This document shows positions 17,400 through 27,778 of a stretch of DNA of 32,859 nt, one piece after another; the first letter of the stretch is position 1, and each line of letters begins with the position of its first letter. The notes under the pieces are model-generated. The model searched no databases. It was not told the origin of the DNA and saw only the letters and a program-made list of their open reading frames with translations. The stretch lies in assembly GCA_030950105.1 (NCBI GenBank), contig JAUZRV010000001.1:1-32859 (forward strand), read 5' to 3'. The DNA is from Rhodobacterales bacterium. Its GTDB lineage: Bacteria > Pseudomonadota > Alphaproteobacteria > Rhodobacterales > Rhodobacteraceae. The position numbers and the translations under genes are program-made.

Positions 17400-19835
17400 A
17401 TGACATCCCCCGAAAACACGCCCGCCGAAACATCAACCGACACGACAATGGAAGCCGCCACAGAAACCTCTGCGAATCCATCCGTAGATACATCTGCCGA
17501 CGCGCCCGCCAATGCAGCGCCTGAAACTGTGCCTGAAACCGCACCAGAAACAGCCGCAGAAACCGCGCCCGTAGAAACAAAAGAAACACCCGAGAAACCC
17601 GACCTGTCCACGATGATGATCGCGCCGCTGGCCGCTGCGATCACCAAACGCGGCTATGACACCCTGACGCCGGTGCAGATCAAGGTGTCCAAACCCGAAT
17701 TGATTGAACATGACCTTCTGGTCTCGGCGCAAACCGGATCGGGTAAAACCGTCGCCTTTGGCCTCGCGATCACCCCGACCATGCTGGGCGATGCCACGCG
17801 CTTCCCGCGCGCCGCTGCCCCTCTCGCTCTTGTTATCGCACCCACCCGCGAACTTGCCCTACAGGTAAAGCGCGAATTTGACTGGCTCTATGCCGAGGCC
17901 GGCGCCATCACCGTGTCCACCGTTGGCGGTATGGATAGCCGGACTGAAAAACGCGCTCTTGAACGGGGGGCCCATATCGTTGTCGCCACGCCGGGCCGTT
18001 TGCGCGACCATATCATGCGTGGCGTTGTCGATATGTCGGCCATTCGTGTCATCGTTTTGGACGAAGCCGATGAAATGCTCGATCTCGGGTTCCGTGACGA
18101 ACTCGAATATATCCTTGGCGAAGCGCCGAGCGAGCGCCGCACTTTGATGTTCTCGGCCACTGTGCCGCGCGGCATTGCCAATCTCGCCAAGAATTTCCAG
18201 AAACCGGACACCGTGCGCGTTACCACCACCGCCGAGAAAAAACAGCACTCCGATATCACCTATCGCGCGCTTCAGGTTGCCTCGAACGATCCCGAAAACG
18301 CCATTATCAATGTGCTGCGCTATTACGAGGCCCCGACCGCATTGGTGTTCGCCAACACCCGCGCCATGGTCAACCGCCTGACTGCGCGGTTCTCGAACCG
18401 TGGCTTTTCCGTTGTTTCCCTGTCTGGCGAATTGTCGCAAAACGAACGCACCCACGCCCTACAGGCGATGCGCGACGGGCGGGCGCGGGTTTGCGTGGCC
18501 ACCGATGTGGCGGCGCGCGGCATTGATTTGCCCAATCTCGAATTGGTGATTCACGCCGAACTCCCGTCCAACACCGAAACCCTGATGCACCGTTCGGGCC
18601 GCACCGGGCGCGCCGGTCGCAAAGGCGTGAGCGCACTAATCGTGCCCAATCGCGCCCGTAAAAAGGCCGAACGCCTACTTGGCACCGGCAAGATCAAGGC
18701 CGAATGGGCCGCCGCCCCCTCCGCCGACGAGGTCAAGGCCCGCGATGTCGAACGCCTTTTGCAAGATCCGGTGTGGAGCGAACCGGTGCGCGACGACGAA
18801 TCCGCAATGGTCGCCAAATTGACCGATCTGCACGATGCCTCGCAACTTGCCGCCGCCTATCTGCGCCTGTTCCACGCCCGCCAATCGGCCCCCGAAGAAC
18901 TCGCCCCTGTGGACGCAGGCGGCAAACGCCCCGCCCCGCGCGAATTTGGCCCCTCGACATGGTTTTCGGTCTCCATTGGCCGCGATCAAAAGGCCGAGCC
19001 GCGCTGGATTCTGCCGATGCTATGCCGTGCCGGTAACATTGGCAAAGACGTGATTGGCGCAATTCGCGTGCAACAAAACGAAACCTTCCTTGAGATATCG
19101 AACAATGCGGTGGATGGTTTTGTCGCCTCGGTTGGTCCCGACGGCGCGCTTGAAGAAGGTGCCAAATTGACCAAACTCGCCAAGGCCCCCGATCTCGGCT
19201 CAATGCCGCGCCCTGCCCCTTATAAAGGCAATGATCGCAAACCGACGCGCAGCAATCCAAAATCCGGCAAGCCCTACGATCGCAAACCGGGCGGAAAATC
19301 CGATTATAAATCAGGTGGCAAACCGGACTATAAGAAATCCGGCAAACCTGACTATAAAAAGAGCGACAAACCGGCCTATGCCAAATCTGAAGACCGGTAT
19401 TCCGACGGCCCACGCACCGCGCGCACGCCCCACAAGAACATCGGCCACAAACCGAAAAGCGATTACAACCCTGATAGCGGCCCACCCCGTGGTGCCGAAG
19501 CGCCCGAACCAAAGCGCGATTACAAAGGTAAATCGGAATACAAGGGCAAGGCCGAGTATAAGGGGAAATCCGAATACAAGGGCAAGCCCGAGTATAAAGG
19601 CAAACCTAAACCCGCCGGCCGCTCGAATGATCGCCCCGATGACCGCCCCGCGAAATTCGCAAAACCGACATCAAGCAAACCAGCGCCTCGCAAAGGTGCC
19701 ACAGACGCCAGCGTGCGCCTTGGTCCCGATGGCAAACCCAACGGCAAAGTCAAACCACGTCACAGCAGCGCCAAGAAAAAAGCCGCCAAAAAACACCGTG
19801 CCACAGGTGGCAGCGCGGTGCCTCGGCGCAAATAA
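17400..19835 (+). CDS. DEAD-box RNA helicase (DeaD/CsdA-like) with DbpA-type RNA-binding domain
   Basis: 811 residues. An acidic Thr/Ala/Glu/Pro-rich disordered leader (1-67) precedes the helicase core: Q-motif region TLTPVQIKV, motif I AQTGSGKT (110-117), Ia PTRELALQV, Ib TPGR, II DEAD (221-224), III SAT (252-254), V ATDVAARGID and VI HRSGRTGR (397-404). About residues 515-580 (TWFSVSIGRDQ to EISNNAVDGFVAS) match the DbpA/CsdA RNA-binding fold. The tail (from about 600) is very basic, with DYK and EYKGK repeats, and probably binds RNA non-specifically. Such helicases act in ribosome assembly and mRNA turnover, often in the cold. Only a weak GAG precedes the ATG. A strong hairpin follows the stop. 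Confidence 0.92.
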   Translation: MTSPENTPAETSTDTTMEAATETSANPSVDTSADAPANAAPETVPETAPETAAETAPVETKETPEKPDLSTMMIAPLAAAITKRGYDTLTPVQIKVSKPELIEHDLLVSAQTGSGKTVAFGLAITPTMLGDATRFPRAAAPLALVIAPTRELALQVKREFDWLYAEAGAITVSTVGGMDSRTEKRALERGAHIVVATPGRLRDHIMRGVVDMSAIRVIVLDEADEMLDLGFRDELEYILGEAPSERRTLMFSATVPRGIANLAKNFQKPDTVRVTTTAEKKQHSDITYRALQVASNDPENAIINVLRYYEAPTALVFANTRAMVNRLTARFSNRGFSVVSLSGELSQNERTHALQAMRDGRARVCVATDVAARGIDLPNLELVIHAELPSNTETLMHRSGRTGRAGRKGVSALIVPNRARKKAERLLGTGKIKAEWAAAPSADEVKARDVERLLQDPVWSEPVRDDESAMVAKLTDLHDASQLAAAYLRLFHARQSAPEELAPVDAGGKRPAPREFGPSTWFSVSIGRDQKAEPRWILPMLCRAGNIGKDVIGAIRVQQNETFLEISNNAVDGFVASVGPDGALEEGAKLTKLAKAPDLGSMPRPAPYKGNDRKPTRSNPKSGKPYDRKPGGKSDYKSGGKPDYKKSGKPDYKKSDKPAYAKSEDRYSDGPRTARTPHKNIGHKPKSDYNPDSGPPRGAEAPEPKRDYKGKSEYKGKAEYKGKSEYKGKPEYKGKPKPAGRSNDRPDDRPAKFAKPTSSKPAPRKGATDASVRLGPDGKPNGKVKPRHSSAKKKAAKKHRATGGSAVPRRK
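19518..19607 (+). repeat. Five 18-bp coding repeats, [DE]YKGK[SAP]
   Basis: Five tandem six-residue units (DYKGKS, EYKGKA, EYKGKS, EYKGKP, EYKGKP) lie in the basic tail of the DEAD-box helicase. A looser DYKK-S-GKP repeat precedes them at about 19300-19375. Synonymous differences between units argue against a very recent slippage event, but copy number could vary between strains. Confidence 0.85.
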
Positions 19836-21216: not shown

Positions 21217-21233
21217 TATGCATTTGCTGCATA
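21217..21233. promoter_or_regulatory. Palindrome TATGCA-N5-TGCATA upstream of DUF1127
   Basis: A perfect 6-bp inverted repeat with a five-base spacer, about 100 bases before the DUF1127 start. The T...A ends and spacing resemble LysR-type operators, but that family is not proven here. I could not settle on a promoter; in Rhodobacter the equivalent locus uses alternative RpoH-type sigma factors. Confidence 0.4.
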
Positions 21234-21329
21234 GCGGCATTGCGCAAACAGCGTGTTGTGCAGTCGCAGCATTGCCCCTATTTCATCCTCAACAACAGCG
21301 AACAACACTTCACACGAAAGCCAAGTCAG

Positions 21330-21548
21330 ATGACATACGCAACACTTCCACACCCGACCACACGTTTTGGCGCAACCCTTTCCGGCCTGATCAATGACCT
21401 GATCGAAAAAGCTGCGAAACGCCGTGCTTTCAATCGCACAGTGCGCGAACTTGGCGATCTAAGCGGTGCCCAATTGGCCGATCTGGGCTTGCACCGTGGC
21501 ATGATCCATTCGGTTGCGATGGACGTAACTTACGGTACGCATCGCTAA
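21330..21548 (+). CDS. DUF1127 small protein (CcaF1-like)
   Basis: 72 residues from the ATG at 21330; an upstream in-frame ATG at 21177 would add Cys-rich sequence unlike the family. The C-terminal half, VRELGDLSGAQLADLGLHRGMI, is the arginine-bounded DUF1127 motif, preceded by a basic helix (EKAAKRRAFNRT). In Rhodobacter sphaeroides the DUF1127 protein CcaF1 (71 residues) binds RNA, acts in sRNA maturation and RNA turnover, and is cotranscribed with the CcsR sRNAs directly downstream. The same order is seen here: the first hairpin begins 18 bases after the stop codon. The Shine-Dalgarno is weak. Confidence 0.88.
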   Translation: MTYATLPHPTTRFGATLSGLINDLIEKAAKRRAFNRTVRELGDLSGAQLADLGLHRGMIHSVAMDVTYGTHR

Positions 21549-21565
21549 ACCAGAGAATACGAATT

Positions 21566-21635
21566 CAAACACCCGGTCCTCCCCCGGGATGTTTGACAAC
21601 AGCGGTGGCTTCTTCCTCCCTTGAGGCCACCGCTG
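21566..21635 (+). ncRNA. Cuckoo/CcsR-type sRNA, unit 1
   Basis: Two adjacent hairpins. The first (21566-21595) pairs CAAACA-CCCGG with its complement, with one bulged A, and exposes TCCTCCC in the loop. The second (21600-21635) pairs AGCGGTGGC with GCCACCGCT, extended by three inner pairs, and exposes TTCCTCCCTT. Paired hairpins with anti-Shine-Dalgarno CCUCC loops downstream of DUF1127 define the cuckoo RNA family, whose Rhodobacter members are CcsR1-4. Its first hairpin is the most diverged of the array. Confidence 0.8.
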
Positions 21636-21651
21636 CAAAGATTGCGAATAC

Positions 21652-21721
21652 CGGACATTTGATCCTCCCTTCAGATGTCCGATACCGGCGGCGGCTTCTT
21701 CCTCCCAAGAGGCCGCCGCCG
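21652..21721 (+). ncRNA. Cuckoo/CcsR-type sRNA, unit 2
   Basis: Hairpin one (21652-21681): CGGACAT pairs with ATGTCCG, extended by TTGA/TCAG, with loop TCCTCCCT. Hairpin two (21686-21721): CGGCGGCGGC pairs with GCCGCCGCCG, with three more inner pairs and loop TTCCTCCCAA. It starts exactly 86 bases after unit 1 and is separated from it by an A-rich spacer (GCAAAGATTGCGAATAC), a plausible processing site. Confidence 0.85.
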
Positions 21722-21737
21722 CAAAGTTTACCAGATA

Positions 21738-21807
21738 CGGGCATTTGATCCTCCCTTCAGATGCCCGATACCGGCGGTGGCTTCTTCCTCCCGAGAGGCC
21801 ACCGCCG
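21738..21807 (+). ncRNA. Cuckoo/CcsR-type sRNA, unit 3
   Basis: Hairpin one (21738-21767): CGGGCAT pairs with ATGCCCG, loop TCCTCCCT. Hairpin two (21772-21807): CGGCGGTGGC pairs with GCCACCGCCG, loop with TTCCTCCC. It lies exactly 86 bases after unit 2. Relative to unit 2, one stem pair changes A-T to G-C in hairpin one and one changes C-G to T-A in hairpin two, so pairing is kept while sequence varies. Confidence 0.85.
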
Positions 21808-21834
21808 CAAAGTTTACCACTCACGAACCTTCCC

Positions 21835-21873
21835 CTGCTGCCTTGAGTATCTTCAGATATATCAGGGCAGCAG
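21835..21873 (+). terminator. Terminal hairpin of the sRNA array
   Basis: CTGCTGCC (21835-21842) pairs with GGCAGCAG (21866-21873), extended by TTGA/TCAG-type pairs and an inner TATCT/AGATA helix. It lacks the CCTCCC loop of the preceding six hairpins. Only AATTTA follows, not a U tract, so it may be an intrinsic terminator of modest strength or a 3' barrier to exonucleases. Confidence 0.55.
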
Positions 21874-21951
21874 AATTTACGGAACTGGCGGTGCCAAGGC
21901 ATCGCCACTATGCGTTTCGGCATGTCATTGCCGATGTTTGGCGCCTCTCCC

Positions 21952-21980: not shown

Positions 21981-22118
21981 CGGGCCACTTTATTTGGCAA
22001 CAGGGATATGCTGCGGGAATATGGTTGGGCCACAATTTCCAGCTCTCTATTATGGAATAACCACAGTGATTTAGGCAGTATTGGATAGTAGCGGGCAAAG
22101 TTCCGGGAGGGAATAATC

Positions 22119-27740: not shown

Positions 27741-27778
27741 GGTATTGCGCTGCACTGCGGCATGGCGTTAGCAATACC
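27741..27778. promoter_or_regulatory. Inverted repeat GGTATTGC-N22-GCAATACC before pyc
   Basis: Perfect 8-bp arms (27741-27748 and 27771-27778) in the 190-base gap between lldD and pyc, followed by TGATAAT, a possible -10. It could be a leader hairpin or an operator. No good -35 partner was found. Confidence 0.3.

Follow-up and report, generated by a model that had tools for sequence, protein, structure and literature searches.

A cuckoo/CcsR RNA operon of the CcaF1-CcsR kind with predicted PhaR sites in its promoter in a Rhodobacterales genome

A short DUF1127 gene followed on the same strand by a row of hairpins with anti-Shine-Dalgarno (aSD) loops raises the questions of which RNA family the hairpins belong to and what controls their expression. 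We analyzed such a locus in a 32,859-nucleotide stretch of a Rhodobacterales genome (assembly GCA_030950105.1, contig JAUZRV010000001.1, positions 1 to 32,859 of the forward strand), here called the window. The reading that we favor, at a probability of roughly three in four, is that the locus is a CcaF1-CcsR-type operon whose aSD-loop RNAs would block translation and which is predicted to be repressed by PhaR, a sensor of the carbon store PHB, until PHB accumulates. The operon type, a DUF1127 gene with aSD-mimic sRNAs, is known; what is new is the prediction of PhaR-like sites in its promoter, here and across the family.

The first-pass annotation of this DNA had described a DUF1127 gene, six hairpins with CCTCCC in the loop, and a seventh hairpin without it, and a Pfam match (PF06568) and folding of the region bore this out. 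The gap between the gene and the first hairpin is 16 nt, and the array consists of three units with one A and one B hairpin each, followed by one more hairpin. The features are as follows.

21330..21548, + strand: DUF1127 gene, CcaF1-like, 72 aa (Pfam PF06568, E 2e-11), with homologues that have like downstream arrays.
21561..21637, + strand: cuckoo/CcsR unit 1, folding into hairpins 21565-21596 and 21601-21634 with loops UCCUCCC and UUCCUCCCUU; 41.2 bits with model R1 (see below) and 25.7 bits with CcsR1 (below cut-off).
21648..21723, + strand: cuckoo/CcsR unit 2, folding into hairpins 21652-21681 and 21686-21721; 34.8 bits with model R1 and 27.2 bits with CcsR1.
21733..21809, + strand: cuckoo/CcsR unit 3, folding into hairpins 21738-21767 and 21772-21807; 32.9 bits with model R1 and 18.7 bits with CcsR1.
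21835..21873, + strand: seventh hairpin by folding, 17 bp, without CCUCCC; AATTTAC is next.

The region from 21540 to 21880 had a minimum free energy of -168.7 kcal/mol versus -92.4 ± 5.2 kcal/mol for shuffled sequences (z = -14.8). The units start 86 and 86 nt apart, and the earlier description of an exact 86-bp repeat therefore holds for the spacing; it does not hold for the sequence, where units 2 and 3 agree at 73 of 86 positions, unit 1 agrees with them at 64/86 and 62/86, and the stem of the unit 1 A hairpin is wholly different from those of units 2 and 3. The reported stem covariation between units 2 and 3 was confirmed, with an A-U to G-C exchange in hairpin A and C-G to U-A and A-U to G-C exchanges in hairpin B. 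An intrinsic terminator at 21835-21873 was considered and rejected: the hairpin is strong, yet the T-run after it is missing, and a terminator scan made no call there. On the folding model, this seventh hairpin is probably the 3' end or a terminator.

At Rfam gathering scores, no family matched in the window. A permissive search placed CcsR1 on all three units at the scores listed above, against a cut-off of 65.3 bits for RF02791, with ar14 and ar7 also below cut-off. Because the CcsR1 scores fall short of the gathering cut-off, we do not file the locus under the narrow Rfam family RF02791. In a search of the whole genome (3.2 Mb), CcsR1 (E 1.9e-4) and ar14 (E 4e-7) matched at the locus and nowhere else, except for one CcsR1 match with an E value of ~2. 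A covariance model, R1, that was made from the units of 25 relatives with the window sequence excluded had exactly three matches in the window, which are the three units; their scores are low (33-41 bits versus 50-80 bits for most relatives). The covariance-model check suggested in the first-pass annotation thus came out negative at the Rfam gathering score and positive for sub-cut-off CcsR1, ar14, and ar7 matches on the units and for the relatives-only model. No further cuckoo array was found in the 3.2-Mb genome; the one weak match comes from a lone CCUCCUCCC hairpin within the phaP 3' UTR.

Across 97 aligned units, 95.9% of cells were paired, there were 292 double changes, with double changes at 15 of 15 pairs, and covariation was 0.636 versus 0.228 after shuffling and at most 0.167 with slid partners; this alignment leans to the model, and a plain MAFFT alignment of the units gave the same picture. 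At 23 of 29 loci of same-family relatives, the stretch 3' of the DUF1127 gene holds CCUCC-loop hairpins in tandem, numbering about 4-15, and the locus of Falsirhodobacter (Rhodobacter) xinxiangensis has the layout seen in the window. Of the 150 family genomes sampled, 124 had model matches to units. Such matches were present in 6 of 289 genomes across the class, four of the six being of the same family, in a survey whose stricter filters and family-specific model would miss rhizobial relatives. The sub-cut-off Rfam matches, the arrays of relatives, the relatives-only model, the covariation, and the family distribution, together with the DUF1127 gene, the tandem two-hairpin units, and their aSD loops, support what was first proposed for the locus, a cuckoo/CcsR operon with three units that belongs to the CcaF1-CcsR (CIN1) type.

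At 30 loci, mrp is beside the locus in 21 and uvrD in 13. In the window, a fatty acid desaturase gene (PF00487) downstream of the array sits between it and uvrD, the neighbor in several relatives. This desaturase gene has GGGAGGG, complementary to the CCUCCC loops, at 22105-22111 with no ATG nearby, and its candidate starts are TTG 22173 or a rare codon upstream. Elsewhere in the window, 17400-19835 encodes a DEAD-box helicase that has a DbpA domain and, at its C-terminus, a long tail of repetitive sequence rich in K, Y, and G.

The CcaF1-CcsR1-4 locus of Rhodobacter (Cereibacter) sphaeroides (RF02791) shares with the window locus a small DUF1127 gene (72 aa in the window, 71 aa in R. sphaeroides), tandem sRNAs of two hairpins each after it, and CCUCC-type loops; its RpoH-like promoter has a putative counterpart in the window. 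It differs in having four units rather than three and CCUCCUCCC loops rather than UCCUCCC. Cuckoo/CIN1 loci (Reinkensmeier and Giegerich 2015) are likewise described as variable-stem hairpins with a conserved loop motif (PMC4504443), and those associated with DUF1127 are labelled CIN1 (PMC10253847). The window has what marks a cuckoo/CcsR array, a run of 2-4 hairpins (or more) whose stems vary and whose CCUCC-type loop is conserved, and what marks CIN1, a short same-strand DUF1127 gene immediately 5' of the array. The loop motif is two bases shorter than that of the cuckoo RNA family/CIN1 in all six hairpins: UCCUCCC is in every unit loop, and the nine-base CCUCCUCCC is in none of the six. Most relatives keep the full CCUCCUCCC loop, in one of four loops at one locus and in the majority of loops in most others. 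Since the count of this motif also varies among relatives, we treat the shortened loops of the window as variation within the cuckoo/CcsR family. The locus is also akin to the aSD-hairpin sRNAs known in rhizobia (PMC3927594). The Rhizobiales RNAs ar14/NfeR1 and ar7 (SmelA075/SmelA099; RF02344, RF02342) have two to four aSD-loop hairpins and matched here below cut-off (45.5 and 41.2 bits), but they are separate sRNAs, NfeR1 having its own sigma-70 promoter (PMC7143759).

The part of the locus with the most information is the promoter, which lies upstream of the region covered by the first-pass annotation. Within 250 nt 5' of their DUF1127 genes, the window and its relatives share a motif of ATGCANTTGCTGCATAGCAGCATTG, 12-13 bp, TTGTGCANNYGCAGCA, and then YATNTT, which gives the element pattern TGCTGC-N3-GCRGCA, 12-13 bp, TTGTGCA-N2-YGCAGCA over a -35/-10 pair. 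This conserved composite element occupies 21220-21284 in the window, upstream of the DUF1127 gene, with the following parts.

21225..21239, + strand: PhaR-like box 1, TGCTGC-ATA-GCGGCA (TGCTGCATAGCGGCA), about -59 from the putative transcription start; an exact YTGCTGCANNGCRGMA match, conserved in cuckoo-bearing relatives.
21256..21261, + strand: putative -35, TTGTGC, which is conserved and, in most relatives, has YATNTT after a further 16-17 nt.
21258..21269, + strand: PhaR-like box 2, GTGC-AGTC-GCAG (GTGCAGTCGCAG), overlapping the -35 and the spacer; kept as TTGTGCANNYGCAGCA 12-13 bp past box 1.
21278..21283, + strand: putative -10, CTATTT, aligning with YATCTT/CATGTT of relatives.

A generic sigma-70 scan found no promoter at the putative -35/-10, and a sigma-70 consensus promoter for the operon was rejected on this ground; the conserved TTGTGC-N16/17-YATNTT is compatible with an RpoHI/RpoHII promoter. 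The composite element agrees with the published binding sequence of R. sphaeroides PhaR, CTGCNNNGCAG (PMC12542648), and each box has one mismatch to CTGCN3-4GCAG (GCGG for GCAG in box 1, GTGC for CTGC in box 2). Paired CTGCN3GCAG-type boxes around the -35 are a likeness to the PhaR (AniA) regulon, and two PhaR-site copies flank the -35 of phaP1 and phaP2 in Sinorhizobium meliloti (PMC12542648). The window promoter resembles a stress promoter of the RpoH type in which a pair of PhaR boxes surrounds the -35.

The genome has a phaR gene (TIGR01848, 142.7 bits versus a cut-off of 109.45) that adjoins phaC and phaP in a cluster, and boxes of this kind, among them GTGCAGACGCAG, a near copy of box 2, are present in its own phaP promoter. 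Exact YTGCTGCANNGCRGMA sites occur twice in the 3.2 Mb, in the promoter of the operon and in that of ccr (crotonyl-CoA carboxylase/reductase). Sites with one mismatch lie 5' of the divergent phaC/phaZ, phaR, a PHB-type thiolase gene, and a methylmalonyl-CoA-mutase-family gene, as well as 5' of an HpcH/CitE-family lyase gene with a divergent dgcN, malate dehydrogenase (mdh), and a RamB-like acetate regulator; the remaining one-mismatch sites are mostly intragenic. By family membership, ccr, the mutase, and the lyase may act in the ethylmalonyl-CoA pathway. Eight box-bearing loci were noted that make up a predicted PhaR regulon for acetyl-CoA assimilation.

The phaP 3' UTR of this genome (2670-2735 of locus L052; about 7169-7234 of contig C133) has a single CCUCCUCCC-loop hairpin just 5' of a strong terminator, and four relatives also have such a phasin 3' UTR hairpin, upstream of phaR. 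Five loci with this hairpin were seen versus 0.08 expected from gap shuffling. It is an orphan cuckoo hairpin on another predicted PhaR-controlled mRNA. A second DUF1127 gene (15433-15543 of contig C133), ~8 kb from phaP-phaR, is without cuckoo hairpins and has a weak box upstream, TGCATTGCGGCAATGCA.

We scored promoters with a PhaR matrix made from 36 boxes of 18 relatives' phaP promoters, with this genome and all DUF1127 promoters excluded. Its best site in the window is box 1; the second best, at 10.6 bits, is at 27743-27767. Among the cuckoo-bearing loci, 23 of 25 exceeded the 99th percentile of the scores of control windows (p = 3e-15, which reads as conservation and not as independent trials because the loci are related), and high scores were also found at two array-less DUF1127 loci. 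The strict composite element is present in 86 of 150 family genomes, and its reversed control in none. Each of these 86 genomes belongs to the 124 with an array, and none of the 26 array-negative genomes has the element (Fisher 6e-12); these counts are not independent events since the genomes are related. A unit lies downstream on the same strand for 51 of 53 checked element copies, 53-778 bp away. At three loci, the element is directly 5' of the cuckoo array and a DUF1127 gene is not detectable between them.

It is unlikely, though conceivable, that this is the same CcaF1-CcsR operon under RpoHI/RpoHII-type sigma factors alone and that the TGC-rich element belongs to another regulator (e.g., RamB/PccR-like) or to promoter context. 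The R. sphaeroides ccaF1-CcsR promoter is published as RpoHI/RpoHII (PMC10253847), the -35/-10 of the window fits a TTG-type RpoH promoter, and the gene for a RamB-like regulator, which acts on acetate metabolism, bears the motif too. However, RpoH leaves box 1, 5' of the -35, unexplained, and the element matches both the published PhaR site and the phaP, phaR, and phaC promoters of the same genomes. Genomes without PhaR also bear on this choice. PhaR was found in 145 of 150 genomes, and three of the five PhaR-less genomes are also without the array. One genome in which no PhaR was found retains the box, in an assembly that is 84% complete. The complete, one-contig genome G003 is without PhaR and has kept the array and the -35/-10, but its boxes have decayed (score -2.6): CATAGCGGCATT remains, and the left arm and box 2 are lost. 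G003 is the only clear case in which PhaR loss goes with box decay.

Under PhaR control of a cuckoo operon, we infer the course of transcription and processing, the targets, and the binding of PhaR and its sign as follows. A single promoter would give a transcript that comprises the DUF1127 mRNA and, in the 3' part, three cuckoo RNAs of two hairpins each, and RNase E would cut in the single-stranded linkers. The freed RNAs would present UCCUCCC loops on stiff stems that could pair with the Shine-Dalgarno sequences of mRNAs and block translation, and the DUF1127 protein may help processing and turnover, including RNase E maturation as CcaF1 does. In R. sphaeroides, CcsR1-4 with ccaF1 form a CIN1 locus with an RpoHI/RpoHII promoter and RNase E processing, and CcaF1 aids RNase E maturation (PMC10253847). 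NfeR1 silences mRNAs through its aSD loops, which pair with them at the ribosome-binding site (PMC10746234). PhaR would repress the operon until PHB builds up and would then leave the DNA for PHB granules; expression of the cuckoo RNAs would go up along with that of the phasin, PHB, and acetyl-CoA-assimilation genes, in addition to RpoH-dependent stress induction. Because PhaR leaves phasin promoters for PHB granules (PMC12542648), the operon should rise as PHB accumulates. The arrangement of box 1 just 5' of the -35 and box 2 between the -35 and -10 would suit repression, and activation is possible.

We think it quite improbable that the array is mainly a sponge or ribosome mimic whose UCCUCCC loops act globally, by titration of free Shine-Dalgarno sequences or of aSD-binding factors, and have no set targets. 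The loops are all alike, and array size ranges widely (about 4-15 hairpins), as expected if dose matters. Yet related RNAs have defined targets, NfeR1 acting on ntrB and CcsR on flhR (PMC8307010), and the stem sequence of hairpin B is conserved beyond the needs of titration. We reject a DNA-level repeat (REP-like or a selfish hairpin repeat) without RNA function, which the tandem hairpins and 86-bp period might suggest: this genome has one such locus, the array always shares the strand of the gene upstream, stem changes are compensatory and the loops invariant, and promoter and synteny are conserved.

The S. meliloti sRNA MmgR is not known to be a cuckoo RNA. PhaR represses it, so that an sRNA under PhaR is already known (PMC12542648). 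In the literature searched, outside of which lie the primary CcsR, CcaF1, and cuckoo papers, a PhaR-cuckoo link is unreported, PhaR control of R. sphaeroides CcaF1-CcsR is not mentioned, and the sole paper found with both PhaR and DUF1127 treats them in unrelated contexts without a link. CcsR RNAs of R. sphaeroides affect C1 metabolism and pyruvate dehydrogenase (PMC8625941), effects that would fit a storage-state signal.

For this Rhodobacterales family, we consider it likely that the PhaR regulon includes the cuckoo/CcsR operon as a core member. In this reading, PHB accumulation would relieve the aSD sRNA array of repression at the same time as the phasin, PHB, and acetyl-CoA-assimilation genes, and in some genomes the phaP mRNA bears a cuckoo hairpin in its 3' UTR. 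The published role of CcsR RNAs is that of stress RNAs adjusting C1 metabolism and pyruvate dehydrogenase, a source of acetyl-CoA. PhaR operators at their promoter would explain the choice of these fluxes as targets, and the cuckoo array would become an output of the storage state. This prediction concerns most sampled genomes of the family and, if true, would mean that carbon storage is wired directly to a translation-silencing RNA array so far described as a stress response.
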